Shown here piece by piece: positions 14,684-36,436 of a stretch of DNA of 64,000 nt. How positions within the stretch are numbered: position 1 is the stretch's first letter; the number at the start of each line of letters is the position of its first letter. Made by a program: the position numbers and the translations under genes. The notes below the pieces were generated by a model that saw only the letters and a list, made by a program, of their open reading frames with translations, had not been told where the DNA came from and searched no databases. Origin of the DNA: Limimaricola cinnabarinus (GTDB lineage Bacteria; Pseudomonadota; Alphaproteobacteria; Rhodobacterales; Rhodobacteraceae); contig NZ_KZ304957.1 in NCBI RefSeq assembly GCF_002723615.1, forward strand, positions 1 through 64,000, given 5' to 3'.

Positions 14684-15519
14684 GCGCAGCGACCCCGATG
14701 GAGATCCTGATCCCCGCCAGCAACGAGGCGGCGCTGATCGGCGGTTGCCTGTCGGCGCTCGCGGCTTCCGCGCCGCCGCCCGGCCCGGTCGGCGTCACCG
14801 TCATCGCCAATGGCTGCCATGACGCCACCGCCGCGCAGGCGCGGCGCTTCTCGCAGGTCTTCGCAAAGAAGGGCTGGCGCCTGCGGGTGATCGAGCTGGC
14901 GCAAGGCTCCAAGATCGCGGCGCTCAACGCGGGCGAGGCCGGTCTGCCGCCCGGCGCGATCCGGGTCTATCTCGATGCCGATGTCACCGTTTCGCCCCGG
15001 CTGATCGCGGGGCTTCACGCCGCGCTCGACCGGCCGGGCGCGCTCTATGCCAGCGGCCGGCCGCGGATCACCGGGCGGGGCCGCGTCGCGCGCGCCTATG
15101 CGCGGCTCTGGGCGCGGCTGCCCTTCATGCGCCACGGCGTGCCGGGCTGCGGCGTCTTCGCGGTGAACGCCCGAGGCCGGGGCCGCTGGGGCCGGTTTCC
15201 CGATCTCATCTCGGATGACGGTTTCGTGCGGCTGCAATTTTGCCCCGAAGAGCGCTGCGACGTGCCCGCCACCTATGACTGGCCCGTGGCCGAGGGCTGG
15301 CGCGCGCTGGTGCGGGTGCGGCGGCGGCAGGATGCGGGCATGCGCGAGCTGGCGGCGCGGCACCCCGAGATCATGTCGCGCGAGGACAAGCCGCCCCTGG
15401 GCGCCTCGGGTGCCGCGCGGCTGGCGCTGCGCGATCCGCTGGGCTTCGCGGTCTACGGTGCGGTGGCGCTTGGCGTCCGGCTGCGGCCCGCCGGTCGGGG
15501 CTGGAGCCGCGGGCGATGA
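14680..15519 (+). CDS. Family 2 glycosyltransferase
   Basis: Transfers a sugar from a nucleotide donor to a growing glycan at the cytoplasmic membrane face. The 279-residue protein has a GT-A start (EILIPASNEAALIGGCLSAL), VIANGCHDAT, KIAALNAGEA and the metal-binding YLDADVT (DxD) at about residue 105, followed by ISDDGFVRLQ as the acceptor/catalytic acid region and a weakly hydrophobic C-terminal segment. The ATG overlaps the preceding stop (ATGA), and the stop overlaps the start of the flippase gene, so it is embedded in the coupled polysaccharide run. Sugar specificity cannot be assigned. Confidence 0.88.
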   Translation: MSAATPMEILIPASNEAALIGGCLSALAASAPPPGPVGVTVIANGCHDATAAQARRFSQVFAKKGWRLRVIELAQGSKIAALNAGEAGLPPGAIRVYLDADVTVSPRLIAGLHAALDRPGALYASGRPRITGRGRVARAYARLWARLPFMRHGVPGCGVFAVNARGRGRWGRFPDLISDDGFVRLQFCPEERCDVPATYDWPVAEGWRALVRVRRRQDAGMRELAARHPEIMSREDKPPLGASGAARLALRDPLGFAVYGAVALGVRLRPAGRGWSRGR

Positions 15520-16898
15520 CGGCGGCGCTGACGACGGCGCTGATGGGGCGGCTGCGCTCGGCCGATATCGGCAGCCGGGCGCTGCGCTCGGCGGGGATCA
15601 TGATCGCGGGCTTCGGAGCGAGCCAGCTTCTGCGGCTCGGCTCGAACCTTCTGCTGACGCGGCTGCTCTTTCCCGAGGCCTTCGGCATCATGGCGATCAT
15701 CATGGTGGTGATGATGGGCCTCAACATGTTCTCGGATGTGGGCCTCACCCCCGCCATCATGCAAAGCCGGCGCGGCGACGATCCCGCGTTCCTCGACACC
15801 GCATGGACGATCCAGATCGGCAGGGGGATCGCGCTGTGGCTGGTGGCGCTGGCGCTCGCCGCCCCGGCGGCGCAGTGGTACGACGAGCCGATGCTGGCGC
15901 ACTACCTGTCGGTGGCGGCCTTCGCGCTCGTCATCAACGGCTTCAACCCGACCCGGCTCGACACCGCGCACCGGCATCTGCGCGCCGGTCGCGTGACGCT
16001 GATCGAGCTGTCGACGCAAGCCACGCAGCTGGTCGTCGGGCTCGTCCTGGCCTGGGCCTGGGGCTCGGTCTGGGCGCTGGTGGCAAGCGGGCTGGCGGGG
16101 GCGCTGGCGCAGCTGGTCTATCTCAACCTGTTCCTGCCCGGCCCGCGCAACCGGCTGCGCTTCGAGCGGTCGGCCGCCTCCGAGCTGGTGCATTTCGGCA
16201 AGTGGATCTTCTTGTCGACCGTCGCGGGCTTTGCCGTGGCGCAGGGCGACCGGCTCATCATCGGCAGCTACCTGTCGCTGTCGGAGTTCGGGATCTACAA
16301 TATCGGCCTGTTCCTCGCGACATTCCCGGTGATGCTGGGCCACATGGTGACGCGGCGGGTGCTGATCCCGGTCTATCGCGACAGCCCGCCGGGCCGCAGC
16401 CGGGCCGATTTCATGCGGCTGCGGCGGCTGCGGATGCTGGCCAGCGCGGGGCTGCTGGCGGCCACATGCGCGCTGGGCCTTTTGGGCGACTGGCTGATCG
16501 GGGTGATGTATGATGCGCGCTACGCCGCCGCGGGCGGCGTGGTGGTGCTGGTGGCACTCTTGCAGATCCCGGTGCTGATCGGCATCACCTATGATCAGGC
16601 GCTGCTCGCCTCGGGGCGCTCGCGCGGCTTCTTCGCGCTGCAGGCCTTGCGCGCCGTGCTGACCCTCGCGGGGCTGGCGGGGGGCCTCGTTTGGGCTGGG
16701 CTCTGGGGCGGGCTGCTGGGGCAGGGGGCGGCGCAGATCCTGGCCTACCCGCTGCTCGTCGCTCTCGCACGCCGCGAGCGCGCCTGGGATCCGCTGCATG
16801 ATCTCGTATTCGCGGCGGCGGGGCTGCTCCTGGCCGCTCTCTGCCTTTGGGTGAACTGGCCCGCGATCATGGCGCTCGATACGCTCGGACGCTCTTGA
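15516..16898 (+). CDS. Wzx-type polysaccharide flippase
   Basis: A 460-residue membrane protein with about 12 to 14 hydrophobic helices, of the polysaccharide transporter branch of the MOP superfamily (Wzx/RfbX-like). These flip undecaprenyl-linked repeat units to the periplasmic leaflet. The N-terminal pattern SRALRSAGIMIAGFGASQLL followed by NLLLTRLLFPEAFGIMA is typical of the first two helices of this family. It overlaps the glycosyltransferase gene by 4 bp. The PKS gene starts 90 bp downstream with no obvious terminator between, so both may be co-transcribed. Confidence 0.9.
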   Translation: MTAALTTALMGRLRSADIGSRALRSAGIMIAGFGASQLLRLGSNLLLTRLLFPEAFGIMAIIMVVMMGLNMFSDVGLTPAIMQSRRGDDPAFLDTAWTIQIGRGIALWLVALALAAPAAQWYDEPMLAHYLSVAAFALVINGFNPTRLDTAHRHLRAGRVTLIELSTQATQLVVGLVLAWAWGSVWALVASGLAGALAQLVYLNLFLPGPRNRLRFERSAASELVHFGKWIFLSTVAGFAVAQGDRLIIGSYLSLSEFGIYNIGLFLATFPVMLGHMVTRRVLIPVYRDSPPGRSRADFMRLRRLRMLASAGLLAATCALGLLGDWLIGVMYDARYAAAGGVVVLVALLQIPVLIGITYDQALLASGRSRGFFALQALRAVLTLAGLAGGLVWAGLWGGLLGQGAAQILAYPLLVALARRERAWDPLHDLVFAAAGLLLAALCLWVNWPAIMALDTLGRS

Positions 16899-16988
16899 TA
16901 ACGTCGTCTCATGGGCAGGCAGGGGCCGAAAAAGTGCCGTATTCCCCGGCCAGTCTGCATGACGGAACAGAAGTCTGGAGCAGGCGGA

Positions 16989-19900
16989 ATGACGGGGCCG
17001 AACGAAAGCGCAGCGGGCGATATCGCCATTGTCGGCATGGCCGTGGACCTGCCGGGCGCGCCGACGCTCGACGCCTTCTGGCAGATGCTGTCGGAGAGCC
17101 GCACGGCGATCCGCAGGCTGAGCCCCGAGGAGCTGGCGCAGGCCGGCGTGCCCGAGGAGACCAGCCAGAGGCCCGATTACGTCCCCTTCGGCGCGCCGCT
17201 CGAGGGCCATGACCGCTTCGACGCGGGCTTCTTCGGGCTGACGCCCAAGGACGCGGCGATCATGGACCCGCAGCACCGGCGCTTCATCCGCACCGCATGG
17301 GCGGCGCTGGAGAACGCGGGCCGCCTGCCCGAAGCCTTCGACGGGGCGATCGGCGTCTATGCCGGATGCGGGCCCAATGACTACTACATGCGCAACCTGA
17401 TGGGGAACGCCGATCTGCAACGCGATGTCGGCGCCTTTCTGCTGCGCCACACCGGCAACGATAAGGATTTCCTCGCCACGCGGCTGAGCCACATGCTCGA
17501 CCTGACCGGCCCCGCCGTCTCGGTGCAGACCGCCTGTTCGACCTCGCTCGTGGCGGTGCACATGGCCGCGCAGGCGCTGCTCACCGGCGAATGCGACATG
17601 GCGCTGGCGGGCGGGGCCACGATCGAGCAGCCGCAGGGGCGGGGCTATCTGTGGCGCGAGGGCGAGATACTGTCGCCCGACGGCATGTGCCGCGCCTTCG
17701 ATCACCGCGCGCAGGGCACGGTGTTCGGCTCGGGCGCGGCGGTGGTGGCGCTGCGGCGGCTGGAGGATGCGCTGGCGGCGGGCGATCATGTCTGGGCGGT
17801 GATCCGCGGCACCGCCATCAACAATGACGGCGCGCAGAAGGCGAGCTACCTCGCCCCTTCGGTCGAGGGGCAGGCGGCGGCGGTCACCGCGGCGCTGCGC
17901 ATGGCCGGTGTGGGGGCCGAGAGCCTCGGCCTCGTCGAATGCCACGGCACCGGCACGCCGCTGGGCGATCCGATCGAGGTGGCGGCGCTGACCCGGGCCT
18001 TCCGCGAGACGACGCAGGCGCGCGGCTTCTGCCGGATCGGCTCGGTCAAGACCGGCATCGGCCATACCGACACGGCGGCGGGCGCCGCTTCGCTCATCAA
18101 GGCGGCGCTGGCGCTGCATCACGCCGCGATCCCCGGCACGCCGGGCTTCGAGGCGCCCAACCCGGCCATGGCGCTCGCGGAGTCCCCCTTCGAGGTCGCG
18201 GCGACGACGCAGCCCTGGCCGCGCGGTGCCACGCCGCGCCGGGCGGGCGTCAACTCGCTCGGGGTGGGCGGCACCAATGCGCATGCCGTGCTCGAAGAGG
18301 CCCCGGCGCGGTGGGAGGCCGCCCCCTCGGACTGGCCGTTCGAGCTCATCCGGATCTCGGCGCGCTCGCGCGAGGGGCTCGACGCCACCGCCGCAAGCCT
18401 CGCCGCGCATCTGCGCGCCCATCCCGAGCTTGCGCTCTCCGATGTCGCGGCGACGCTGGCGCAGGGCCGCCGCGCGCTGCCGCATCGCCGGGTGCTCCTG
18501 GCCGAAACCGGCACCGAGGCCGCCGATCTGCTCGATGGCTGCGATCCGCGCCGGGCGGCGACCGCGCGGGCGCAGGCCGACCCGGAGGTGGTGTTCCTCT
18601 TTCCCGGCGGCGGCGCGCAGCAGCCCGGCATGGGCCACGATCTCTACGAGACCGAGCCGGTGTTCCGCGACTGGATCGACCATGGCTTTGCCGCGATGGG
18701 CGAGGAGGGCGCGGCGCTGCGCGCGCTCTGGTCGCCCGCGCCGGGGCGGGAGGCCGAAGCCGCGGCCGCGCTGCGCCGCCCCTCGCGGCAATTGCCGCTG
18801 CTGCTCATCGTCGAACACGCGCTGGCGCGGCTCTGGATCGGCTGGGGCGTGCGCCCCGCGCGGCTGATCGGTCATTCCATGGGCGAGAACACCGCCGCTG
18901 TCGTGGCGGGGATCATGTCCTTCGAGGAGGCGCTGGGGCTGGTGCGGCTGCGCGGCGCCCTGTTCGAGGAGACCGAGGCGGGGGCGATGCTTTCGGTGGC
19001 GCTTCCGGCCGAGGAATTGCGCGCCGAGCTGGGAGAGGAGCTCGACCTCGCCGCGATCAACGCGCCGGCGCTCTGCGTCGCCTCCGGCCCGGTGGCCGCG
19101 ATCGCGGCGCTGGCCGAAAGGCTGTCCGCGCGCGGCGTCGAGGCCCGGCGCATCCCGATCGAGGTCGCGGCGCATAGCCGCCTGCTCGACCCGGTGCTGC
19201 CGCGCTTTCTGGAGCATTTGCGCGGCATGCGCCTGTCGCCCCCCGAGATCCCGGTCATCTCCAACCGCACGGGCCGCGCGCTCACCGCCGCCGAGGCCAC
19301 CGATCCGGCCTATTGGGCCGAGCATCTGCGCCACACGGTCGATTTCGACGCGGCGCTGCACGGGCTTGGGGCGGGCGCGCGCCTCTTTATCGAGATCGGG
19401 CCGGGCACCAGCCTCGGCTCCTTTGCCACCCAGCAGCCCGGCATCGGTCCGGGCCGGACGCTGGCGGGGCTGCGCCCGGCTTCGGCGCCCGAGGGCGACG
19501 ACCGGCACATGATCATGGCGCTGGGGCGGCTCTGGGCGATGGGCGGCACCTTCGACGAGGCCCAGCTCTGGACACCGGACCACCGCCGGGTGCCGCTGCC
19601 CGGCACCACACTCGACGAGACCCGCCACTTCATCGCGCCCGCGCGGGCCGCGGCGGAGCCGCCGGCGCATCCCGCGCGCGAGGACGACATGGACCGCTGG
19701 GCCTGGCGCCCCGGCTGGTCGCGCCGCTATCCGGGCGGGGCCTACGAGGCGGGCGGCGACCTGGCGGCGCAGGAGGCGGGCAACTGGCTGGTGTTCCTCG
19801 ACGAGACCGGGCTCGGCGCCGGGCTCGTGGCGCGGCTGCGCGCGGCGGGGCACGCCGTGGCCTGCGTTTCCCCCGGCCCGCGCGAGGCGCAGACCGGCCC

Positions 19901-22900
19901 GGCCGACTGGACCATCCGGCCCGAGGCGGGAGAGGAAGCGCATCGCTGGCTGTTCGAACAGCTGGCCGAGGCGGAGCTGCTGCCCGAGCGCGCGCTGCAT
20001 CTTTGGTGCGTGACCGCGCCGCGCCGCCGGGGCCGCAGGGGGCATCGGCAGCGGATGCAGCTGCTCGGCCATCAAGGGCTGATGCACCTGGCGCGCGGCT
20101 GGCACGCGGCGCAGGGCGACCGGGCGCTGCGGCTTCTCGTGGTCAGCAGCGAGGCCTATGCCGCGGCCCCGCGCGACCGGCCCGACCCGACCAAGGCGAC
20201 GCTCGATGGCCCGGCGCTGGTGATCCCGCGCGAACTGCCGGGCTTCGCGCTGTCGCGGCTCGATCTTTCGGCACCGCGCCGCGCCGGCCGCGCGGCGCAG
20301 ATCGAGGCGGTGCTCGAAGAGGCGCTTTCTCCGCCCGCACCGGCCCCGGTGGCCTGGCGCGCGGGGGTCCGCCGGGAGCGCGTCCCGCGGCGCGTGGCGC
20401 CGCCCGCCGCCGCGCCGGTGCTGCGCCATGGCGGCGCGGTGATGATCACCGGCGGTCTGGGCGGCATCGGCCTGACGCTGGCCGAAACGCTGATCCGCGA
20501 GGCGCAGGCCCCGGTCGCGCTCGTCTCGCGCCGCGGGCTGCCGCCGCGCGAAAGCTGGGAGGGCCGCATCGCGGCGGGGGGCGAGGGGGAAGAGCCGCGC
20601 CTCATTCGCGCCGTGCTGCGGCTCGAGGCGCTGGGCGGGCGGGTCATGGTGCTGCGCGCCGATGTGACCGATCTCGAACAGATGCGGGACGCGGTCGCCC
20701 GGGCGACGTCCGGGCTGGGTCCGCTCAGCGGCGTGATCCACGCCGCCGGGCGGCTCGACGACGCACCGGTGCTGGGCCGCGATCCGGCGGCGGCCGAGGC
20801 GGTGCTCGCGCCCAAGCTGCAGGGGCTGATGGTGCTCGACGCGCTGTTTCCCGACGGGCGGCTCGACTGGATGGCGCTGTGCGCCTCGAGCTCGGGCTGG
20901 ACAACCCCGGCGGGGCAGGCCGATTACGTCGCCGCCAACGCGGCGCTCGACGCCTATGCGCAATCGCATGCGGGCGGAGCCACGCGGGTCGTGGCGATCG
21001 ATTGGGGCATCTGGGCCGATACGGGCATGGCCGCCAGGGGCGGCAGCGGCCCGCGCGCGCCCCAGAGCCCCGCCAGCGGGGCGCGGCCCGATCCGAAGCT
21101 GATGTTCGATCACCGCGAGACGGGGGAGGAGATCCTGCTGAGCGCGCGCTGGAGCCCCGCGACGCGCTGGTTTCTCGATCAGCACCGCACGCGGGCGGGC
21201 GAGGCGCTTCTGCCCGGCACGGGCTATGCCGAGATGATGGCGGAGCTGGCCGGGCCGCGCGGCTTCGTGCCGTTCGAACTGCGCGAGCTGCGCTTTCTCG
21301 CGCCCTTGCACACGCCCGATGCGGGCGAGACCCGGGTGCGCGCGCGGCTGCACCCCGATGACGGTGCCGTCTCGGGGCAGGAGGGGCCCGTGCCGGGCCT
21401 GGTCGAGATCGAGGCCGCGCCGCCGGGGGCGGATTGGGGGCCGGTCGCCACCTGCCGGCTCGGCGGTGCCGAGGCCGCCCCGCGCGATATCGAGATCGGG
21501 GCCATCGCCGCGCGGCTGCCCGCGCCCGCGCCGCTCGTCCTGCCGCAGCAAACCCATCTCGATTTCGGCGCCGAGTGGCAGATCACGGGCGAGGCCCGTC
21601 TCGGCGCGCGCGAAGGGCTGGCCGAGCTGGAGCTGCCGGACGGGGCGACCCCGGGCATGCCGCTGCATCCGGGCCTGCTCGACATCGCCACCGGATGGGC
21701 GATCGAGCTTGTCGAGGGCTATGATCCGGCCCGGCTCTGGGTGCCCGCGGGCTACGGGCTGATGCGCATCCATGCGCCGCTGCCCGGCCGGATCGTGAGC
21801 CATGCGCGGCTTGCGCGGCAGGCGGAGGGCGCCGCCTGGTTCGACCTCACGCTCTGCACCCCCGAAGGGGCGGTCTGCGTCGAGATCGAGGGGTTCGAGA
21901 TACGCGCCCTGGCGGCGGGGCTGTCCCTGCAGGCCGGGCGCGGTGCCGGCGATGCCGCATCTTCCCGGTCCGATCCGCTGGAAGAGGCTCGGCGGCGGGG
22001 CATCCGCCGCGAGGAGGGCGGGGCGGCCTTCCTGATGGCGCTGCGCTCCGGCCTGCCGCAGATCGCGATGACCGCGCAGCCGCTGCCCGAGCTGATCGCC
22101 GCGGCCCGCGCGATCCGCCCCGCGCCCGCGGCATCCGCGCCGGAGGTCGCGCTGTCGGAGGAGTTCGAGACCGAGACGCAGGTCTGGCTCGCCGGGCAGT
22201 GGATGGCGCTGCTCGGGGTCGAGCGGGTCGGGCCGGATGACAGCTTCTTCGATCTCGGGGGGCATTCGCTGATCGCGGTGCGGCTGTTCGCGGCGATCCG
22301 CCGCGAGACCGGCACCGCGCTGCCGATCTCGGCGCTGTTCGAGGCCCCGACGATCCGCGCGCTCGCCGCGCGGCTGGAGCCCGAGGAGGGCGCATCCCGG
22401 CCCGGCACGCCGCCCGCGGCGGGCGGTGCGCGGCGGGCGGCCGAGGACAGCGTGCATCTCGTCGCGCTCGAAACGAAGGGCGACAAGACGCCGCTCTTCA
22501 TCTCCGCGGGCATGTTCGGCAATGTCATGAACCTGCACCATCTCGCGCGGCATCTGGGCGCGGAGCGGCCGGTCTGGGGCCTGCAGGCGCGCGGGCTGAC
22601 CGGCGAGGTGCCGCCGCATCGCCGCTTCGAGGAGATGGCGCGCGATTATCTGGCCGAGATGCGCCGCGTGCATCCGGGCGGGCCCTGGCTTCTGGCGGGC
22701 TATTCGGGCGGCGGGCTCGTCGCGCTCGAAATGGCGCGGCAGCTGACGGCCCAAGGCGAGGAGGTGGCGCAGCTGATGCTGCTCGATACGCCGTTGCCGC
22801 AGCGCCCGGCCCTGCGCTGGCAGGACCGGCTGGCGATCCAGGCGGTCGAGCTGCGCCGGGCCGGTCCGGCCTATCCGGTGAACTGGCTCGCGCAGCGGCT

Positions 22901-23306
22901 GCGCTGGGAGATCGACCGCCGCCGCCATGGCCGCCTCGCGGCGCAGCCGAGCGCGAGCCCGGTCGAGGCCGCGATCGAGGCCGCCTTCTACGAGGCCAGC
23001 GCCGCCTACCGGCTGCAACGCTGGGACGGCCCCATGACGCTGTTCCGCCCGCCTGTGGCGGGGCGTTGGCGCCTTGCGGGCGGGCGCGTGGTGAACGACG
23101 ATCGGCACTATGTGAGCGAAGACAATGGCTGGCGCGACTGGGCACCGGCGCTGGAGGTGATTGAAGTGCCGGGCGATCATGACAGCATGGTGCTGGACCC
23201 CAATGCCGAGGCGCTCGCCGCCCGGATGCGCGCCGGGCTCGCGACGGCCGGGCGCGCGGCGAAAGAGACCGATGCGGCGGGATCGGATCTGCATGCCGCG
23301 GAATGA
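16989..23306 (+). CDS. Type I polyketide synthase, one module (KS-AT-KR-DH-ACP-TE)
   Basis: A 2105-residue megasynthase. Ketosynthase about 12-440 with TACSTS (Cys183), CHGTGTP (His319) and KTGIGHTD (His359). Acyltransferase about 535-830 with GHSMGEN (Ser630) and AAHSRLLDP, which is neither the classic malonyl (HAFH) nor methylmalonyl (YASH) signature. Structural and catalytic ketoreductase about 890-1345 with TGGLGGIG and the Ser/Tyr1313/Asn region ending [13 protein letters not shown]. Dehydratase about 1385-1640 with [15 protein letters not shown] (His1399) and HPGLLDIA (Asp). Carrier protein with GGHSL (Ser1760). Type I thioesterase with GYSGGG (Ser1906) and GDHDSM (His2064). No methyltransferase or enoylreductase. 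All centres look intact, so it should perform one extension to a 3-hydroxy or 2-enoyl product and then release it. The ATG at 16989 is preceded by GGAG; earlier in-frame starts have none. Confidence 0.95.
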
Positions 23307-24288
23307 CCACAGCGACATCCGCCTGCTGACGATCATCCTGAACTGGCGCACGCCGGAGATGACGCTGCGCGCGGCCCGAAGCGCGCTCGACGCGATGCGC
23401 GGGATCGAGGGCGGGATCGTCATCGTCGACAATGATTCGGGCGACGGCTCGGAGCTGTGGCTGCGCGAGGCGGTGGCGGCGCAGGGCTGGGCGCCGCGGG
23501 TGCGGGTGGTGCAGTCGGGCCGCAATGGCGGCTTCGGCGCGGGCAACAATGCGGGCATCCGCGCCGGGCTCGCCGATGGCGCGGCTGCGGATTTCGTCTA
23601 TGTGCTGAACTCCGACGCCTTTCCCGATGCGCAGGCGATCACCGCGCTTCTGGCGCATATGCGGGCGCATCCCCGGGCCGGTCTGGCCGGCAGCCAACTC
23701 GAAGGGGAAGACGGCGTGCCGCATGTCTCGGCCTTCCGCTTTCCTTCGCTCCTGTCGGAGATCGAGGGGCCGCTGCGCTTCGGCCCGGTGTCGCGGCTGC
23801 TGGGGCGGCACAGCGTCTGGATGCGGATGCCCGGGCAGAGCGGCCCGGTGGACTGGGTCGCGGGGGCGAGCCTGATGATGCGCGCCGGGATGCTCGATGC
23901 GACCGGCGGCTTCGACGAGGGGTTCTTTCTCTATTTCGAGGAAACCGACCTGTGCCGCCGCGCCCGCGCCGCCGGCTTCGAGACGCATTTCGTCCGCGAG
24001 AGCCATGTGCGGCATATCGGTTCGGTCTCGACCGGCATGGGCTCTTGGACCCGCGTGCCGGAGTACTGGTACGATTCGCGCCGCCGCTATTTCCGCAGGC
24101 ATTTCGGCGCGGCGGGCAGCGCCGCGGCGACGGCGCTGCATCTTCTGTCGGGCGGGCTGCACCGGCTGCGCTGCCTCGTGATGCGGCGCGAGACGGGCGA
24201 TCCGCCGGGCTTCCTGCGCGGCATGATCCGTCACGAGCTGGGCCATGTTGCGGGGCCGTGTAGGGCTTCGGCGAGAAAGAGGGCATGA
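23293..24288 (+). CDS. Rhamnosyltransferase-like family 2 glycosyltransferase
   Basis: A 331-residue GT-A glycosyltransferase. Seen: [14 protein letters not shown] at the N-terminus, [36 protein letters not shown] (DxD-like) and [20 protein letters not shown], the last being the hallmark catalytic region of the GT2 branch that includes rhamnosyl- and other deoxyhexosyltransferases. The ATG at 23293 lies 14 bp before the PKS stop, and the stop overlaps the NRPS start (ATGA). It is therefore translationally tied to both megasynthases. This suggests it glycosylates, or supplies the glycan for, their product; that link is inferred. Confidence 0.9.
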
Positions 24289-27200
24289 GCATGACGCTGG
24301 CACTGATCGGGGAGACCGCGCTGACGCTCGAAGCGGCGCGGATGGCGCGGGAGGCGGGGCTGCGGCTTTCGCTCGTGATCACGCGCCACGCGCCCCTGCG
24401 CGCCCATGCGCAGGCGCATGGCATCGCGACGCTCGCGCCCGACCGGCTCGACAAGCTGCCGGACGGGATCGACTGGCTGCTCAGCGCGGGCAATCTGCGG
24501 CCCCTGCCGGGGGCGGTGCTGGCGCGCTTCGCCAAGGGGGCGATCAACTTCCATGACGGGCCCTTGCCCGAGCGGGCGGGGCGCAACGTGCCGGTCTGGG
24601 CGCTGCTCGATGGCGCGCGCCGCCACGCCGTGACCTGGCACCTGATGACCGCCGGGATCGACGCGGGCGACATCCTCGTGCGGCAGGGCTTCGACATTCC
24701 GCCCGGGGCCACGGCCCAGAGCCTCAACGCGCTGTGCTTCGCCGCCGCGATCGAGAGCCTGCCGCAGGTCTTCGCGCAGATGCGTGACGGGCTGCGGCCC
24801 CGGCCGCAGCCCGCCGGGCAGGGGCGGATGCACCGCGCCGCCGACCGCCCGCCCGCCGATGCGCTGATCGACGGGCGCGGCCCGGCCGAAGCGGCGCTGC
24901 GGCTGGTGCGCGCGCTCGATCATGGCGACCGGGAAAATCCGCTGTGCTGCCCCAAGATCGCCGGTCCGCGGGGGCCGGTGCTGGTGGGCGCGGCCGCGAT
25001 CTGCGACGCGGCGCGCCCGGGCGAGGCGCCCGGCACGCTGCGCGCCGTCTCGGCGGATGGGCTCGATCTGGTCTTCGAGGACGGGGTGCTGCGGCTGACG
25101 GGGCTGCGCCGCCCCGATGGCGCGCCCTGCGCCGCCGATGCGCTCTTTGCCGCCGGCGACCGGCTGCCTGCCACCGAAGCCGGGCCGCTGACGGCGCGGA
25201 TGGCGCGTCTGGCCAAGGCCGAGCCGGGCTGGCGCGCGCGGCTCGAAGCGCTGCGCCCGGTCGCGCTTGCCGGGTTTGCCGCGCCGCGGGCGATCGGTGA
25301 GGGAGAAGGCGAAAGCTGCCAGCTTGCGGTCGAGGCCACGCCGGAGCGGCGCATCGCGGCGCTGGCGCTGCTGGCCGCGCGCCTGTCGGACGGTGCGGCT
25401 GATATCGCCCTGTTGCGACCGGACGAGGGCGGGCATGTCTCGGACTGGGTGCCGCTGCATGTGGCACCCGATCCAAGGGAGACGCTGCAGGCCTTCGCGG
25501 CGCGGCTCGCGGCGGATTGCGCGGCATTGGAGGCGGGCCCGGGCTTCGCGGCGGATCTGCCCGCTCGGCTCGGCACGCCGCCGCCCGCGGTGCCGGCGCT
25601 GGCGCTGGGCCGGACCTGCCCCGAAGGGGCGCTGCTCGCCCTCGACCCCGAAACCGGGCGCCTGCAGGCCGCGCCGGGGGCGCTGCTGCCCGGGGCGCTG
25701 GACCTGCTGGCCGGGCGGATCGAGGCGTTGCTCTCCGCCGGGGCGGATGCGCCGGGCCTTGCGCTGTCGAAGCTGCCCGTGACCGGGCCGGGCGAGCGCG
25801 ATCTGCTGATCGAGGGCTGGAACGCGACCGAAGGCGCGATCCCCGAGGGCACGATCGACGCCGCCATCGCCGCGCAGGCGCGGTGCCGCCCCGAGGCGAC
25901 GGCGCTGATCTGCGGCGAGACGCGGCTCGGCCATGCCGAGTTGGAGGCGCGCGCCAACCGCATGGCGCGGGTGCTGATCGAGATGGGCGCAGGGCCGGGC
26001 GGCCATGTCGGGCTGCATCTGCCGCGCTCGGCCGAGATGGTCGTGGCGATGCTCGCGGTGCTGAAATCCGGCGCGGCCTATGTGCCGCTCGACCCGTCCT
26101 ACCCGGCCGAACGGCTCGCCTTCTACCTCGAGGACAGCCGCGCCGGTCTGGTGATCTGCGAGGCCGAGGGGGTCCTCGGGCTGCCGACGGGCGCGGCGCG
26201 GCTGCTGCGGCTCGACGATCCGCGCATCGCGCGGGCTTCGCCCGGCCCGATCCCGGCGCGGGCGCGGGCCGGGGATCTGGCCTATCTGATCTACACCTCC
26301 GGCTCGACCGGCCGCCCCAAGGGGGTGATGATCGAGCACCGGCAGGTGATGAATTTCCTCGCCGGGATGGATGCGCGGGTGCCGCATGCGCCCGGCGACG
26401 TGCTCCTGGCGGTCACCTCGATCTCCTTCGACATCTCGGTGCTGGAGCTTGTCTGGACCCTGTCGCGCGGGATGACGGTGGTGATCCAAAGCGAGGAGGA
26501 GCGGCTGCTCACCTCGGCGGGGCCTGCGGCCGCGCAGAAGCCGAAGGGCCCGGCGCTCAGCCTGTTCTACTGGGGCCACGAGGACAGCGACACCGCGGAT
26601 TACCGGCTGCTTCTGGAGGGCGCGCGCTTTGCCGATGCGCATGGCTTCGAGGCGGTCTGGACGCCGGAGCGGCATTTCCACGGCTTCGGCGCGGCCTATC
26701 CCAACCCGGCGGTGACCGGCGCCGCCGTCGCCGCCGTCACCTCGCGGCTGGCGATCCGGGCGGGCAGCTGCGTGGCGCCGCTGCACCACCCGGCGCGCAT
26801 CGCCGAGGATTGGGCGGTGATCGACCGGCTGTCGGGCGGGCGCGCGGGGCTGGCGATGGCGGCGGGCTGGCAGCCCGGCGATTTCGTGCTGCGCCCCGAA
26901 AACGCCCCGCCCGACAACCGCGCCGCCCTGCGCGATGGCATCGACGCGGTGCGGCGGCTCTGGCGCGGCGAGGCGGTGGCCTTTGCGCGCGCCGATGGCA
27001 GCCTGCAGGAGGTGACGACGCGGCCCCGCCCGGTGCAGCCCGAGCTGCCCTTGTGGCTCACCATCGCGGGCAATCCCGAAAGCTGGCGCGAGGCCGGGCG
27101 GATCGGGGCCAACGTGCTGACCCATCTTCTGGGGCAGAGCATCGAGGATCTGGCGGCAAGGATATCCGACTGGCGCGCCGCGCTGGCCGAGGCGGGGCAC

Positions 27201-28895
27201 GATCCTTCGGCCTTTCGCGTCACGGTGATGCTGCACAGCTATCTCGACGAAAGCCGCGAGGCCGCCTATGATGCGGCGCGCGGCCCGATGAAAGCCTATC
27301 TGCGCTCCGCCGCCGGGCTGATCGCCAGCCATGCGGCGGCCTTTCCGGCGATCCGGCGCGGGGCCGACGGGGCGATCGACCCCGATGCGCTGACGCCCGA
27401 GGAAATGGACGCGGTGCTCGAACACGCCTTCGCGCGCTATTTCGAGACCCAGGGGCTGTTCGGCACGATCGAAGACGGCGCGGCGCGGCTGGCGCAGCTG
27501 CGCGCCATCGGGGTCGACGAGATCGCCTGCCTGATCGATTTCGGCATCGCGCCCGACCGGGTGCTGGCGGGGCTGCCGCGGCTGGCGGCGCTGGTGGATG
27601 CCCAGCCTGCCCAGCCTGCCCAGCCCGTGGCACCGGCCGAGGAAGACCGCTCGATCGCCGCGCAGATCCGCCGCCACGGCGTGACCCATCTGCAATGCAC
27701 GCCATCGATGGCGCGGATGTTGGTGGCCGACGAGACGAGCCGCGCCGCGCTGGGCGGGCTGTCGCATCTCATGCTGGGCGGCGAGGCGCTGCCCGCGGCG
27801 CTGGCCGAGGAGCTGCGCGCGGCCGGGATCGGCTGGATCGAGAACATGTATGGCCCGACCGAAACCACGATCTGGTCGACCACGCGGCGGGTGACGCCGG
27901 AGGCCCCGGTCTCGGTGATCGGCACGCCGATCCTCAACACCCATGCCTATGTGCTCGATGCGGCGATGACGCCCTGCCCGGTGGGGGCACCGGGCGCGCT
28001 GTGGATCGGCGGCGCGGGGGTCGCGCGCGGCTATTGGGGCCGGGCGGAGCTGACGCGGGCGCGGTTCCGCCCCGATCCGTTCCGGCCCGGGGAGCGGATC
28101 TACGAGACCGGCGACCTCGCGCGCTGGCGCGCGGATGGCACGCTCGAATATCTCGGCCGGGCCGATGCCCAGGTGAAGCTGCGCGGCCACCGGATCGAAC
28201 CGGGCGAGATCGAGGCCGCGCTCGATGCGATCTCGGGGCTGGGCCCGAGCGTGGTGCTCCTGCGCGAGGATCGGCCCGGCGATGCGCGGCTCGTGGCCTA
28301 TCTCGAAACCGCGGCACCGATCGACGAGGCGGGGCTGCGCGCGGCGCTGGCGGCGCGGCTGCCGGGCTTCATGGTTCCGGCGCGGATCGTCGCGCTGGTG
28401 CAGTTCCCGATGACGCCCAACCGCAAGACCGACCGCGCCGCGATGCCGCCACCGCCGCCCCGCGCCCCCCGTGTTCCGGAGCCTGAGATCGCCGCGCCGG
28501 TGCCTGAGACCGCCGCGCCGGTGGCGGCGAGCATAGCTGCGCCCGCGCCCGGCACCGCCGCCCCGGCCATCGCGCAGATCTGGCGCGAGCTGCTCGACGT
28601 GGAGCAGGTCGGCCCGGGCGACAGCTTCTTCGATCTCGGCGGGCATTCGCTTCTCGCGGTGCGCGCCCATCGCGAGATCCGCGACCGGCTCGGCGTGGCG
28701 GGGCTGCAGATCACCGATATCTTCGGCCTGCCGCGGCTTGCCGATCTCGCGGCGCGGATCGAGGCCGAGCTGATGCCGGAGCCGCCCATGGAGCCCGGCT
28801 CCGCGCCTGCGCCCGCCACTGCCATGGCCGGCACGCGCGAGGAGATGATGGCGCGGCGGCGCGCGCTGCGGGCGCGGCGGGGCGGGCATGTCTGA
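24285..28895 (+). CDS. NRPS module: formyltransferase - A domain with inserted luciferase-like monooxygenase - PCP
   Basis: 1536 residues. Residues 1-180 form a formyltransferase-type domain with INFHDGPLPERAG (Asn88, His90) and AGIDAGDIL (Asp129), the classic Asn-His-Asp set, followed by its C-terminal lobe to about 290. Residues 290-510 weakly recall part of a condensation domain but lack HHxxxDG. The adenylation domain begins about 510: LKSGAAYVPLDPSYPAERL, YTSGSTGRPKG, then FDISVLEL with Asp716, the residue that binds the amino group. At 757-1105 it is interrupted by a luciferase-like flavin monooxygenase (LFYWGHEDSDTADYRLLLEG, ERHFHGFG, CVAPLHHPARIAEDWAVID). It resumes with THLQCTPSMARML, MYGPTETT (Tyr1189), YETGDLAR, LRGHRIEPGEIEAAL and NRKTDR. 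The PCP has GGHSLL (Ser1455). Such insertions are known from MupA/Atu3671-type natural-product enzymes. No condensation or release domain is present. Confidence 0.93.
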   Translation: MSMTLALIGETALTLEAARMAREAGLRLSLVITRHAPLRAHAQAHGIATLAPDRLDKLPDGIDWLLSAGNLRPLPGAVLARFAKGAINFHDGPLPERAGRNVPVWALLDGARRHAVTWHLMTAGIDAGDILVRQGFDIPPGATAQSLNALCFAAAIESLPQVFAQMRDGLRPRPQPAGQGRMHRAADRPPADALIDGRGPAEAALRLVRALDHGDRENPLCCPKIAGPRGPVLVGAAAICDAARPGEAPGTLRAVSADGLDLVFEDGVLRLTGLRRPDGAPCAADALFAAGDRLPATEAGPLTARMARLAKAEPGWRARLEALRPVALAGFAAPRAIGEGEGESCQLAVEATPERRIAALALLAARLSDGAADIALLRPDEGGHVSDWVPLHVAPDPRETLQAFAARLAADCAALEAGPGFAADLPARLGTPPPAVPALALGRTCPEGALLALDPETGRLQAAPGALLPGALDLLAGRIEALLSAGADAPGLALSKLPVTGPGERDLLIEGWNATEGAIPEGTIDAAIAAQARCRPEATALICGETRLGHAELEARANRMARVLIEMGAGPGGHVGLHLPRSAEMVVAMLAVLKSGAAYVPLDPSYPAERLAFYLEDSRAGLVICEAEGVLGLPTGAARLLRLDDPRIARASPGPIPARARAGDLAYLIYTSGSTGRPKGVMIEHRQVMNFLAGMDARVPHAPGDVLLAVTSISFDISVLELVWTLSRGMTVVIQSEEERLLTSAGPAAAQKPKGPALSLFYWGHEDSDTADYRLLLEGARFADAHGFEAVWTPERHFHGFGAAYPNPAVTGAAVAAVTSRLAIRAGSCVAPLHHPARIAEDWAVIDRLSGGRAGLAMAAGWQPGDFVLRPENAPPDNRAALRDGIDAVRRLWRGEAVAFARADGSLQEVTTRPRPVQPELPLWLTIAGNPESWREAGRIGANVLTHLLGQSIEDLAARISDWRAALAEAGHDPSAFRVTVMLHSYLDESREAAYDAARGPMKAYLRSAAGLIASHAAAFPAIRRGADGAIDPDALTPEEMDAVLEHAFARYFETQGLFGTIEDGAARLAQLRAIGVDEIACLIDFGIAPDRVLAGLPRLAALVDAQPAQPAQPVAPAEEDRSIAAQIRRHGVTHLQCTPSMARMLVADETSRAALGGLSHLMLGGEALPAALAEELRAAGIGWIENMYGPTETTIWSTTRRVTPEAPVSVIGTPILNTHAYVLDAAMTPCPVGAPGALWIGGAGVARGYWGRAELTRARFRPDPFRPGERIYETGDLARWRADGTLEYLGRADAQVKLRGHRIEPGEIEAALDAISGLGPSVVLLREDRPGDARLVAYLETAAPIDEAGLRAALAARLPGFMVPARIVALVQFPMTPNRKTDRAAMPPPPPRAPRVPEPEIAAPVPETAAPVAASIAAPAPGTAAPAIAQIWRELLDVEQVGPGDSFFDLGGHSLLAVRAHREIRDRLGVAGLQITDIFGLPRLADLAARIEAELMPEPPMEPGSAPAPATAMAGTREEMMARRRALRARRGGHV
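27601..27627 (+). repeat. Triplicated 9-bp repeat at the monooxygenase exit junction
   Basis: CCCAGCCTG, CCCAGCCTG and CCCAGCCCG follow each other directly and encode an Ala-Gln-Pro repeat. They lie exactly where the luciferase-like insert ends and the adenylation domain resumes, so they act as a flexible linker and may mark the insertion joint. Confidence 0.75.
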
Positions 28896-29658
28896 GGCGG
28901 CGCAGCTCGCGGCCGGGATCGAGGCGCTGGGCGGGCCGGGCCTCGTGGCCTGTGCCGTGTGGATCGGGGCAGAGGGCGCGCCCGACTGCGCGCTCGCGCC
29001 CGAGGAGGCGCGCGCCATGGCCCGCGCGGTGCCCGCGCGGCGGGCCGAGTTCGCCGCCGGGCGCCATGCCGCGCGCGAGGCGATGCAGCGGCTCGGCCAA
29101 GCGGCGCAGCCGGTGCCGATGCGGCCCGACCGCTCGCCGCATTGGCCCGAGGGGCTGCGCGGCAGCATCAGCCATGAGGCGGGCCTCGCCGTCGCGGCGC
29201 TGCGCTCGGGCGGCGCGGCCTTCGGCATCGACATCGCGCCCGCCGCACCGCTCGACCGCGATCTGCATGACGAGATCGCCGCCCTCGGCGAGCTCGACCA
29301 GCCGGTGCCGGGGTTCGATCGGGGCATGATCGCCCGGCTTGTCTTTTCGGCCAAGGAGGCGGCCTACAAGGCGCAGTTTCCCGAAAGCGGCCTGGTGCTG
29401 GGCTTCGAGGCCATGCGGGTCGAGATCACGGCGACGGGGCCGGCAGGGGGCGGCCTCGTGGCGCGTCTGGCGCGGCCTGCCGGACCTTATGGGGCGGGCA
29501 CGGCGTTTCGCGGGGGCTGGAGGCGGATCGGGGCCCGCTTCGCGGTGCTGATGCAGGCCCCGGCGTCCGCTGCAGAAGGTTGCCGGCCGGGTTTCGCGCT
29601 GCGCAACACTGCGTCGCGCGGCCGCGCGCGCATGGCCAGCCGGGACGGGGTGAGCTAG
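28888..29658 (+). CDS. 4'-phosphopantetheinyl transferase (EntD/Sfp superfamily)
   Basis: Loads phosphopantetheine from coenzyme A onto the carrier-protein serines, here presumably the ACP (Ser1760) of the PKS and the PCP (Ser1455) of the NRPS. The 256-residue protein shows the family order: RRAEFAAGRHAAREAM, SISHEAGLAVAAL, FGIDIAP (Mg-binding Asp) and LVFSAKEAAYKAQFP (Glu and Lys of the second motif). The layout fits the EntD-like branch. The C-terminal 40 residues after AVLMQAPAS look disordered. The ATG lies 8 bp before the NRPS stop. A dedicated PPTase in the same run is strong support that both megasynthases are meant to be active. Confidence 0.92.
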   Translation: MSEAAQLAAGIEALGGPGLVACAVWIGAEGAPDCALAPEEARAMARAVPARRAEFAAGRHAAREAMQRLGQAAQPVPMRPDRSPHWPEGLRGSISHEAGLAVAALRSGGAAFGIDIAPAAPLDRDLHDEIAALGELDQPVPGFDRGMIARLVFSAKEAAYKAQFPESGLVLGFEAMRVEITATGPAGGGLVARLARPAGPYGAGTAFRGGWRRIGARFAVLMQAPASAAEGCRPGFALRNTASRGRARMASRDGVS

Positions 29659-29724
29659 ATTGCGGCCCGGGTGTGGCGGCAATGAGGCCGGGGCCGCGAG
29701 GCGCGGCCGGAACGGGAGTCGGTG

Positions 29725-30981
29725 ATGGAGTATCTTTCCTCGCTGCGCGATCTGCGCGGGGCGCTGCGCCGCAGGGCCTGGGCCATCGTGCTGGTCTGCG
29801 CGCTGGGCATCCCCTTCGTGCTGTGGTTCGCGCTGACGCGCCCGCCCGCCTATGAGGCGACGGCGGTGATCCAGATCGAGGCGCCCCTGGTCGATGCGGG
29901 CGGCGATGCGGCCGCGCTGGCCGATACCCAGCTCGACCTGATCGAACAGAAGATCATGGCGCGCGACAGGCTTCTGGACCTCGCCGCGCGCTTTTCGCTC
30001 TTTCCCGAGCTGAGCGCCTCGGAGCGGCTGGCGCGGATGCGCGAGGCGATCGAGATCAGGAAGCTGGTCGATCCGGCGCTGGCCTGGCGGCCCGAGACCG
30101 TGCCCTCGGGGCTGTCGATCACGGTCGAGCTGGGCGAGCGGCAGGTCGCGGCCGATCTGGCCAACGCGCTGCTGAGCGAGATCGTCGCCGCGGCGCAGAG
30201 CCGGCGCGAGGGGCGCACCGAGCGCACGCTGGCCTTCTTCGAGTCCGAGGAGGCCCGGCTCGAAGAGGAGCTGGAGACGCTGGAGGCGGAATTCGCGCGG
30301 TTCCAGGAGCAGAACTTCGACTCCCTGCCCACCAGCGTCGCGGCGCAGCGCGACCAGCTATCAAGGCTGGTGGCCCAGCGGATCGACCTCGAACAGCAGG
30401 TGATCGCCTTCGAGACCAGCTCGGACCGGCTGCGCGAGGACGAGACGGCGCGCCGCCGCTCGCTGCTCGAACAGCAGCGGCAGCTGATCACCGACAATAT
30501 CGAGCGGATCGAGGCGGCGCTGGCCGCCGCCCCCGAGACGGAGCGGCGCTACAACGACTATGCCCGCAGGCGCGACCAGCTGCAGCAGGCGCTGTCGGCG
30601 GTGACCGAGCGGCGCGCGGAGGCGGCGATGGCGCGGCTGCTCGAAAGCCGCGACGAGACCACGCGCTTCGAGATCCTCGAAAAGGCGGTGCCGCCCGATT
30701 ACGCCTCCTCCTCCTCGCGCCGCAAGATCGCGGCGGCGGGCGGGATCGGGGTGCTGCTCGCCGCTCTGGCGCTGGCGCTGTCGCTCGAGGTGGTCAACCC
30801 GCAGATCCGCACCGCGGCGCAGCTGGAGCGCGCGCTCGGGGTGCGGCCGGTGGTGGTGATCCCCGAGATCGACCGGCGGCAGGCGCGGCGCCGGGCGCGC
30901 CGGGTCCGGCGGCGCGAGGCCGGGCGATTCCTGGGGATCTGGGGCCGGTTGCGCGGCTGGCGGCGGTTCCTGCCGGGCTAG
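29725..30981 (+). CDS. Polysaccharide chain-length determinant (Wzz/GumC-like)
   Basis: Polysaccharide co-polymerase of 418 residues controlling chain length and export in the inner membrane. A first hydrophobic helix (about 20-38) is followed by PPAYEATAVIQIEAP, the typical Wzz beta motif, a long heptad-rich coiled coil (about 160-300; EEARLEEELETLEAEFARF) and a second helix (about 335-355) preceded by ILEKAVPPDYASS, the proline-rich pre-helix segment. The C-terminal tail is very basic (RRQARRRARRVRRREAGRF), with no kinase domain fused. The ATG at 29725 has GGGAG about 6 bases upstream. Its stop shares CTAG with the stop of the opposing ATPase gene. Confidence 0.88.
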   Translation: MEYLSSLRDLRGALRRRAWAIVLVCALGIPFVLWFALTRPPAYEATAVIQIEAPLVDAGGDAAALADTQLDLIEQKIMARDRLLDLAARFSLFPELSASERLARMREAIEIRKLVDPALAWRPETVPSGLSITVELGERQVAADLANALLSEIVAAAQSRREGRTERTLAFFESEEARLEEELETLEAEFARFQEQNFDSLPTSVAAQRDQLSRLVAQRIDLEQQVIAFETSSDRLREDETARRRSLLEQQRQLITDNIERIEAALAAAPETERRYNDYARRRDQLQQALSAVTERRAEAAMARLLESRDETTRFEILEKAVPPDYASSSSRRKIAAAGGIGVLLAALALALSLEVVNPQIRTAAQLERALGVRPVVVIPEIDRRQARRRARRVRRREAGRFLGIWGRLRGWRRFLPG

Positions 30982-31907
30982 GCCGCGCCCGAGGCGGGGT
31001 CTTCCTCGGCGCGGTTGAGGATCATCCCCAAGATCGGCTTGTCCTCGCCGATGCGGCGCACCGCCTCGCGGATCTGCTCGGCGCTGTTGCGCCCGCCGCC
31101 GACCACCATCAGCACGCAGTCGTAGCGCGCGCGAAACGCCGTCACGTCGTCATGGTTGAGCGCCGGGGGCAGGTCGAACAGCACCGCGTCGGGCGACAGC
31201 TCCTCCTGCATCTGGTCAAGCACGGCGGCGGCCTTGGGGTCCTGCAGCAGCTCGGCGGGGTAGGTCTCGGCCCGGTCGTTGAGCCCGACGGCAAGGCCGC
31301 CGATGCCCAGAAGGTTCTGGCCGACCCGCTGCAGATGCGTGCCGCTCGACGCGGTGCCGCGAATCCAGTCCGAGATCGGGCCGGGGGCCGAAACCCCGAG
31401 CACGTCGGCAAGCGCCGGTGCGCGCATGTCGAAATCGAGCAGCACGGTGCGGCGATTCTCGTAGCGCGACAGCGCGATGGCGAGATTGGCGGCGGTGAAG
31501 GTCTTGCCGCAGCCGCGGGTGGGCGAGGTGATCGCCACCCGTTTCCAGCCATGCTCGTCGAGCGCCTGCAACAGCCGCGTGCGCAGCAGGTCGAAGGCGG
31601 CATGGGCCGGATCGCGGCGGCTGGCGGTGATCACGAGGTTGGCTTCGAGGATCGCCTCGTCGACCGGGATGCGGCGCAGGCTGCCCCACAGGTCGTGGAT
31701 CTGCGGCAGCAGGGTCACGTCATCGCCCAGCACCGCGGCGCGCAGGGCGCGCGTGGCCGGGTCGGTTTCGGGTGCGGGGGCGGCGAGGCGGGCGGCGGTC
31801 CCGCTCTCGCGCGCCGGGGCATCGACTTCGGCGATCCGGTCGAGAATCGCGGCGCGGGCCTCCGCGCCCAGCCGCCTGCGTCCATCCCGCTTGCTGCGTT
31901 CGCTCAT
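30978..31907 (-). CDS. CpsD/CapB-like P-loop ATPase for polysaccharide export
   Basis: A 309-residue cytoplasmic ATPase of the tyrosine autokinase/ParA-like fold. Walker A is SPTRGCGKTFTAANLA (about residue 135), and the A'/B region is RTVLLDFDMRAP; a third motif VLFDLPPAL is also present. It would pair with the chain-length protein whose gene converges on it. The C-terminus (ILNRAEEDPASGAA) lacks the tyrosine cluster that bacterial tyrosine kinases autophosphorylate, so I infer either a non-kinase ATPase or a kinase acting on another protein. It is encoded on the opposite strand to its presumed partner, with the stop codons sharing CTAG. Confidence 0.82.
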   Translation of the reverse strand: MSERSKRDGRRRLGAEARAAILDRIAEVDAPARESGTAARLAAPAPETDPATRALRAAVLGDDVTLLPQIHDLWGSLRRIPVDEAILEANLVITASRRDPAHAAFDLLRTRLLQALDEHGWKRVAITSPTRGCGKTFTAANLAIALSRYENRRTVLLDFDMRAPALADVLGVSAPGPISDWIRGTASSGTHLQRVGQNLLGIGGLAVGLNDRAETYPAELLQDPKAAAVLDQMQEELSPDAVLFDLPPALNHDDVTAFRARYDCVLMVVGGGRNSAEQIREAVRRIGEDKPILGMILNRAEEDPASGAA

Positions 31908-32011
31908 CTCGTCAAACCTCGCCTGCCGCCTGGTCGCGGCGAAGGTAACCCGGAACGGGGGGCGAGAATAAGCCCCGATCGCAGCCCTGCCGCGGCGGGA
32001 CCCGGCGCAGC

Positions 32012-36268: not shown

Positions 36269-36436
36269 CGCGCTGCGGCTCCATGCGGTCTGTCGGGCGT
36301 CCGACCGCTTCCGGTCCGACGCCAAGTGGTACACAAGGGACATGGCGGCATCGGGGCGGCCGCGAGATCCTCGGGGCCATGGCTAAGCCAGCCCGCGCCC
36401 CGCGCCAAGAGGCGGAGGGCAGGCGAGGGAAGCGCG

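Follow-up and report, generated by a model that had tools for sequence, protein, structure and literature searches.

A four-gene PKS-NRPS cassette within an exopolysaccharide locus of Limimaricola cinnabarinus and its possible role in acyl decoration of the glycan

The window analysed here, a stretch of 64,000 nucleotides from the rhodobacteraceous bacterium Limimaricola cinnabarinus (RefSeq assembly GCF_002723615.1, contig NZ_KZ304957.1, positions 1 to 64,000 of the forward strand), carries within a surface-polysaccharide locus a cassette of four genes on one strand (16989-29658) that encode a polyketide synthase (PKS), a family 2 glycosyltransferase (GT), a nonribosomal peptide synthetase (NRPS), and a phosphopantetheinyl transferase (PPTase). 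We give about an even chance to the reading that the NRPS and the PKS, served by their own PPTase, make one C4 acyl unit from N-formylglycine and one malonate, probably hydroxylated, that decorates the exopolysaccharide of the locus. The broader proposition, that a widespread class of alphaproteobacterial exopolysaccharides is decorated unit by unit with a formamido-butenoyl group (or its hydroxylated form) by a dedicated NRPS-PKS line, is tentative and falls a little short of evenly balanced. Should it hold, a large bacterial group may bear a surface glycan whose chemical group has no description that we could find, and thiotemplate natural-product chemistry, of a kind more often put to making antibiotics, would be serving as glycan tailoring, with a group made from glycine, formate, and malonate. 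If the roseobacter PKS and NRPS genes listed under secondary metabolism, or genes like them, tailor a glycan, the search for their product has been misdirected; the pair would also offer, in just two proteins, a simple model of how an NRPS passes its unit to a PKS and of how a thioesterase (TE) acts on a sugar.

Domain architecture of the cassette proteins

An earlier note, made from the letters of the window alone, had described four genes overlapping by 14, 4, and 8 bp and lying between a flippase gene and a chain-length gene, and both the layout and the placement were confirmed, the flanking genes being a Wzx-type flippase (15516-16898) and a Wzz-like gene (29722-30981). The overlap sizes are valid for the gene starts as given here, with 16911 as an alternative to 16989 for the PKS. 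The two smaller products were assigned with Pfam, the GT between PKS and NRPS (23293-24288, + strand) by Glycos_transf_2 and the PPTase (28888-29658, + strand) by 4PPT_N (2.8e-23) and ACPS.

The NRPS (24285-28895, + strand) comprises, by Pfam (Formyl_trans_N, AMP-binding, Bac_luciferase, PP-binding) and NCBIfam, an N-terminal formyltransferase (F), an adenylation (A) domain split by a luciferase-like monooxygenase (LLM), and a peptidyl carrier protein (PCP). The LLM lies at residues 758-1103, with A-domain stretches on both sides, and belongs to the MupA/Atu3671 family (TIGR04020, 452.9 bits against a curated cut-off of 244.45). Pfam matched neither a condensation (C) domain nor a TE in the full protein, and the N-terminal parts of the NRPSs of 36 relatives gave one weak Condensation match only (E 0.3). 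A plain C-A-PCP NRPS was set aside because no C domain was found; the A domain and the PCP with its active serine are present, and the domain order is that of an F-A(LLM)-PCP initiation module rather than a canonical C-A-PCP extension module, which corrects the label "one-module NRPS" of the earlier note. LgrA heads the list of PDB matches for the protein.

In a structural model of NRPS residues 1-524 (pLDDT 93), residues 1-295 form a whole methionyl-tRNA/ArnA formyltransferase fold (structure comparison of the model, Z 26.1 to 2bln). About 200 residues (310-520) separate the formyltransferase from the A domain, and the model is mostly confident there; that this stretch is half a condensation domain is a guess. 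Conservation was assessed in an alignment of the window protein with 80 relatives (81 rows), in which the formyltransferase residues N88, H90, and D126 were found in all 81 rows and the second aspartate checked, D129, was D in 61 rows only. The A-domain code reads D-I-L-Q-x-G-M-I-W-K, and eight of its ten positions do not vary among the 80 covering rows; x is M in 44 rows, L in 25, F in 8, Y in 2, and V in 1, and the eighth position is I in 77 and V in 3. The PCP serine was present in 80 of 80 rows. In Paracoccus marcusii (L092, 13430-18021), the annotation assigns the formyltransferase to a separate gene, apart from the A-LLM-PCP part.

By Pfam, the type I PKS (16989 or 16911 to 23306, + strand) reads as ketosynthase (KS), acyltransferase (AT), ketoreductase (KR), dehydratase (DH), acyl carrier protein (ACP), and TE, with the active residues of KS, AT, and ACP present; NF045894 also matches the protein, below its cut-off. 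Catalytic residues are conserved among the relatives, where a contig end or a frame break truncates the PKS in several of the gapped rows: the KS cysteine was found in 74 of 74 rows and its histidines in 74 of 75 and 75 of 75, the AT serine and the ACP serine each in 77 of 77, the KR serine, tyrosine, and asparagine in 77, 76, and 75 of 77, the DH histidine and aspartate in 76 and 77 of 77, and the TE triad of serine, aspartate, and histidine in 76 of 76, 77 of 77, and 78 of 79. Within the LDD motif of the KR, the final position holds D in 77 of 77 rows and the middle position in 50, which suggests a KR of B type. The DH stands behind the KR, the reverse of the usual DH-KR order. Neither an enoylreductase (ER) nor a methyltransferase domain was detected in the PKS by Pfam, and we assume malonate as the extender given the AT motif, GHSMGE, and the missing methyltransferase match.

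Distribution and gene neighbourhood among relatives

A search of genome contigs matched at least 592 stretches, at least 584 of them coding for relatives, and the best 80 were analysed, a sample biased to close relatives; three are Hydrogenophaga records and the other 77 carry names that we take to be Rhodobacterales. Cultured carriers among them include Limimaricola pyoseonensis DSM 21424 (L013) and Tritonibacter scottomollicae DSM 25328 (L015). PKS homologues were found in all 80 loci, the GT in 79, and the PPTase in 72, and the order PKS-GT-NRPS was kept in 78. When the nine polysaccharide genes of the window were searched in the same loci (tblastn, E up to 1e-6; matches lying on the cassette itself dropped), at least one was matched in 78 loci, with two or more matched in 69 and three or more in 60, and at least one of the initiating polyprenyl-phosphate hexose-1-phosphate transferase (PHPT), Wzx, Wzy, Wzz, and Wzc was matched in 76. 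Ten control stretches with a total of 86 kb, few in number and not randomly drawn, gave zero matches to the nine genes. One of the two loci without a match (L017) has genes resembling GDP-mannose pyrophosphorylase and an acyltransferase, and the other (L024) is a 9.9-kb contig.

The pairing of NRPS and PKS was also found in an even draw of the family (149 genomes, the window's own included), which was searched with the front part of the NRPS (E up to 1e-30) and the KR-DH part of the PKS (E up to 1e-50). Each part was found in 54 of the 149 genomes and both in 51, that is, in 51 of the 57 with either, against about 20 expected under independence with shared ancestry set aside. NRPS matches occurred in 53 of the 148 family genera sampled, about one third. 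PKS and GT lie upstream, in order and on the same strand, of 49 of the 56 NRPS copies. The seven others include G158 and one copy in G140, both described below; NRPS and PKS parts are on different contigs in G113 and G037, and in G100, G161, and the second copy in G146 the NRPS contig had no PKS match at the same threshold. The genomes with the PKS part only were G043, G132, and G112, the last with a decayed NRPS, from which LLM, formyltransferase motif, and PCP serine are missing, and with one TGA in its PKS match. Polysaccharide homologues still stand near this decayed cassette (L135). A chance neighbourhood was set aside in view of the conserved order in 78 of 80 loci and the joint occurrence in 51 of 57 genomes. 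Co-divergence, for which each family was tested against the NRPS and against the PKS, was highest for the PKS-NRPS pair (Spearman 0.69, permutation maximum 0.18, species kinship not removed).

Closer to the window, the whole NRPS was found in six of seven congeners; in the seventh (G001) the contig ends inside the PKS gene, and its lack of an NRPS looks like an assembly gap. A one-off island was set aside on these grounds. Among 13 near genomes, ten carry the flippase and nine the family 4 glycosyltransferase (GT4) of the locus; nine of the ten flippase carriers also hold the NRPS, and the tenth, G001, holds the first 417 PKS residues up to its contig end. Three (G008, G010, and G011) have no flippase or GT4 match and no high-scoring NRPS.

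Further afield, the formyltransferase-to-linker profile was found in 10 of 385 genomes in an even draw of the class, five in the family (the window's own included) and five outside it. Two of the latter (G436 and G494) hold full NRPS and PKS, and in the other three (G388, G460, and G403) the front part, on short stretches, runs into NRPS sequence that is different or incomplete. Plasmid records with a match numbered 28, and among the 20 listed are those of the Rhizobiales Shinella and Aminobacter, with a PKS on the other strand, an F-A-LLM-PCP protein, a PPTase, and homologous GTs and flippase; a Streptomyces plasmid aligned from the A domain onward only, without the formyltransferase.

The association with polysaccharide genes put forward in the earlier note is thus strongly supported by the best 80 loci, the Rhizobiales plasmid relatives, and the shared presence of flippase and cassette among the near genomes. 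Homologues of the flippase, chain-length, and candidate polymerase genes accompany the cassette in 53, 56, and 40 of 80 loci, respectively. The NRPS-PKS pair was not seen to occur routinely without polysaccharide genes, G494 and G158, both described below, being exceptions.

Two further observations concern individual relatives. Between L010 and the window, the cassette proteins are 47-72% identical and the flanking polysaccharide proteins (Wzc excluded) 69-88%, from which the cassette seems to change faster than its flanks. In Hydrogenophaga pseudoflava (L045, 18762-24767), the cassette is followed by a GT gene and by another NRPS, of the order AMP ligase-PCP-C-A-PCP-TE.

Direction of assembly, candidate product, and rival readings

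In G436 and G494, of the same class but outside the family, the NRPS gene comes first and the PKS gene begins on the same strand after a gap of 22 and 54 bases, respectively, and one of two copies in G140 likewise has the NRPS first, with about 1.1 kb between the NRPS and PKS matches; flippase and GT homologues lie near the second G140 copy. In G158, a family member, an F-A-LLM-PCP gene with formyltransferase, A-code, and PCP motifs of the same kind as the window's ends six bases ahead of a 3080-residue frame that reads KS-AT-KR-DH-ACP-C-A-PCP-TE. Because of the gene order in these relatives and the longer line of G158, assembly appears to run from NRPS to PKS, with the F-A-LLM-PCP unit most likely starting the chain and the PKS extending it, and because no condensation domain was found, the amino acid would come first rather than an acyl group being placed onto it. 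The "small acyl-aminoacyl unit" of the earlier note is thus supported as a small acyl or aminoacyl unit, made, apparently, from an amino acid followed by one ketide extension. A formate-tetrahydrofolate ligase gene that starts 1.4 kb behind in G158 would supply the formyl donor. The first protein of the longer PKS-NRPS line there (L133, L134) carries an aminotransferase class III domain, and the F-A-LLM-PCP gene stands mid-line.

The chemistry that we propose would open with the PPTase priming PCP and ACP, the A domain loading glycine onto the PCP, and the N-terminal domain formylating the glycyl amine from 10-formyl-tetrahydrofolate. The LLM within the A domain would hydroxylate the glycyl alpha carbon, and the KS of the PKS would accept the formylglycyl unit, after which addition of one malonate, ketoreduction, and dehydration would give a 4-formamido-but-2-enoyl thioester, probably 4-hydroxy. 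The TE may then transfer the acyl group to a sugar of the repeat unit, in whose assembly the adjacent cassette GT would be used, before Wzx export and Wzy polymerisation. Priming, loading, formylation, and extension are predicted from domains with conserved residues and hydroxylation from precedent; it is from gene context that we infer the attachment to the glycan. We expect 4-formamido-4-hydroxybut-2-enoyl as the unit because LLM-type domains in glycine A domains or modules hydroxylate the alpha carbon, with 4-formamidobut-2-enoyl and 4-oxobutenoyl as alternatives. According to the accessible text of two sources, such monooxygenases alpha-hydroxylate glycine in the myxothiazol, melithiazol, and solanimycin B pathways, and thereafter the bond breaks to a glyoxylyl thioester in the first two and the hydroxyl stays in solanimycin B (PMC10204066, PMC11342130).

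Several points weigh against this scheme. An alpha-hydroxylated formylglycine could likewise break down to a glyoxylyl thioester. The DH motifs deviate, with one extra residue in HxxxGxxxxP and a constant glycine behind the aspartate, where glutamine or histidine is usual, and DH activity is less sure because of this. The A code, its positions read from the alignment, is a putative glycine code by its likeness to DILQLGLIWK, which we take to be one for glycine. NRPS residues 310-520 gave no fold match, the fold lists for the 1-524 model being filled by the formyltransferase part so that this stretch was barely tested. The open reading frames (ORFs) tested in the window's locus held no acyltransferase gene, and an amino-sugar gene was likewise not found there, which leaves no acceptor candidate. 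The settings of some relatives tell against the scheme as well. In G494, no polysaccharide gene occurs among nine scanned neighbours (zinc uptake, a thiamine pyrophosphate (TPP) enzyme, a regulator, a hydrolase, transporters, and a kinase), and tblastn gave no match to those of the window in 34 kb. In G158, the nine polysaccharide queries match nothing in 30 kb and the setting resembles ordinary secondary metabolism. The setting of G436, on the other side, speaks for a link to the glycan, with a DegT aminotransferase gene, a pair of epimerase genes, and two GT4 genes close to the NRPS and PKS. Because of G494 and G158, the pair can serve outside glycan loci, and a glycan role would be its usual but not its sole one.

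The zinc-uptake, TPP-enzyme, and transporter genes around the pair in G494, where no sugar gene was found, and the longer PKS-NRPS line of G158 favour the main rival, namely, that the TE releases the product as a free small molecule (a signal, a chelator, or a toxin) and that the placement in the locus comes from co-regulation with surface growth; simple hydrolysis, moreover, is within reach of a type I TE whose triad is intact. We consider it unlikely, although the foremost of the alternatives, in view of the polysaccharide homologues beside the cassette in 78 of the 80 top relatives and in the Rhizobiales plasmid relatives, the GT held between PKS and NRPS in as many loci, and the finding by Pfam of no exporter or resistance gene among the four cassette genes. 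A siderophore was set aside, there being no transporter among those genes. That same position of the GT, together with its co-divergence with the PKS (Spearman 0.58), would suit a reading in which the GT glycosylates the polyketide-peptide unit itself, yielding a small glycoside or a glycan primer and not a side-chain decoration. We regard this as improbable: in L068 the GT sits 8 kb past the NRPS, in L072 it was not found, and beside the NRPS-PKS pair in G436 and G494 nothing matched it, and the locus has an initiating sugar transferase of its own. Because of these four cases, the chemistry need not depend on the GT. They count against the proposed decoration too, as does a Wzz-PKS co-divergence (0.60) that exceeds the GT-PKS value and leaves the GT not singled out.

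A longer acyl chain or lipid anchor is the proposed role of the rhizobial and Burkholderia proteins RkpA and WcbR, and an iterative PKS might make one here, with the NRPS working separately. Type I PKS genes do occur in rkp and wcb capsule clusters, as far as the accessible text of the source goes (PMC3908369). This reading seems very improbable given the presence of both genes in 51 of the 57 genomes with either, the NRPS gene closely preceding the PKS gene in G436, G494, and G158, and an ER domain not being detected. Decoration of the glycan by the NRPS-PKS pair remains the reading we prefer.

The polysaccharide locus and comparison with known systems

The genes at 10365-36343 include an initiating sugar transferase, a possible Wzy, a glycanase-like protein, GTs, a flippase, a Wzz, and autokinase-like and sugar-dehydrogenase-like genes. 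The "complete Wzx/Wzy-type locus" of the earlier note stands as regards the initiating transferase, flippase, and Wzz, and fails as to completeness: the outer-membrane exporter family Poly_export (PF02563) is not on the window's contig, two such genes lying on two other contigs of the genome, and the Wzy candidate has no family match. The locus is near-complete, not complete.

Upstream of the cassette, all on the + strand, lie the PHPT (10365-11183; Bac_transf 4.6e-55, TIGR03022 and TIGR03025 below their cut-offs; homologues in 18 of 80 loci), the candidate Wzy polymerase (11322-12710), the glycanase-like protein (12713-14683; 45 loci), a family 2 GT (14680-15519; Pfam Glycos_transf_2; 52 loci), and the oligosaccharide flippase (Pfam Polysacc_synt_3, 4.2e-50). 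For the candidate Wzy, a membrane protein, a simple Kyte-Doolittle count gave 11 hydrophobic segments; neither Pfam nor NCBIfam matched it, and its name is inferred. Downstream lie the Wzz-like chain-length protein of the XrtA-system kind (+ strand; Pfam Wzz 1.2e-5, TIGR03007 3.1e-25) and, on the - strand, a Wzc-like autokinase-domain protein (30978-32009, start approximate; Pfam CbiA, TIGR03018 2.8e-25; 48 loci), a family 2 GT (32012-32986; Pfam; 49 loci), an EpsE-like GT4 (32983-34509; Pfam Glycos_transf_1, NF041876 1.8e-66, below its cut-off; 54 loci), and a Gfo/Idh/MocA oxidoreductase, likely a sugar dehydrogenase (35156-36343; Pfam; 23 loci).

The glycanase-like gene probably starts at a GTG at about 12707, and its product, which has an RTX-like repeat and is probably secreted, had no Pfam enzyme match. 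In Foldseek, its AlphaFold model (pLDDT 84) matched a GH10 xylanase best (E 6.5e-8) and then other TIM-barrel glycanases, with TM-scores by query length that were low, at about 0.2-0.3. The columns S-N-E-x-W-N are invariant in 24 sequences, and the protein is perhaps a member of an unnamed glycoside hydrolase family tied to the glycan of the locus.

The enzyme kinds in the cassette are known; their join and setting are unusual. We found no published description of the combination of a PKS, an F-A-LLM-PCP NRPS, and a polysaccharide locus in a search that covered mainly open-licence papers. The F-A-PCP initiation module of LgrA, the linear gramicidin synthetase, likewise has a formyltransferase fused ahead of A-PCP; the window NRPS differs in its whole FMT/ArnA fold, in the LLM inserted in the A domain, and in being followed by a PKS and not by an NRPS module. 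The LgrA formyltransferase is shorter than the whole FMT/ArnA fold. RkpA and WcbR belong to systems whose export type and role differ from those of the window locus. They are likewise type I PKSs encoded in a surface-polysaccharide cluster, and no NRPS, formyltransferase, or monooxygenase partner is named for them in the accessible text, unlike in the window cassette (PMC3908369). Like the window NRPS, whose A domain is putatively of glycine type, the myxothiazol, melithiazol, solanimycin, and corallorazine-like lines carry a monooxygenase within an A domain or module of glycine type (PMC10204066, PMC11342130). There the domain acts on a grown chain, whereas here it would act on a starter unit whose amine is to be formylated, and in a polysaccharide locus. 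The althiomycin NRPS-PKS line resembles our reading in its proposed sequence of glycine, one malonate extension, and TE release and differs in being multi-module and making an antibiotic, with no polysaccharide link stated in the portion available (PMC3445576).

Roseobacter genome papers, in their accessible parts, count such PKS and NRPS genes as secondary metabolism (PMC4062626, PMC11225332), and no link of these genes to polysaccharide was found there. The PKS Inhi_1972 and NRPS Inhi_1974 of the Phaeobacter inhibens type strain are filed in this way, and their numbering would fit PKS-GT-NRPS, by locus numbers alone; Tritonibacter mobilis AK171 is reported to have a type I PKS and an NRPS-like cluster without a known counterpart.

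The window's Wzz and autokinase resemble TIGR03007 and TIGR03018 of XrtA/PEP-CTERM exopolysaccharide loci, both below the curated cut-offs, and no exosortase was found among those of the window's ORFs that were scanned. An AAA_22 ATPase, a kind known from XrtA-type loci, stands in front of the cassette in Hydrogenophaga pseudoflava (L045), and a Ruegeria plasmid has XrtD near its cassette.

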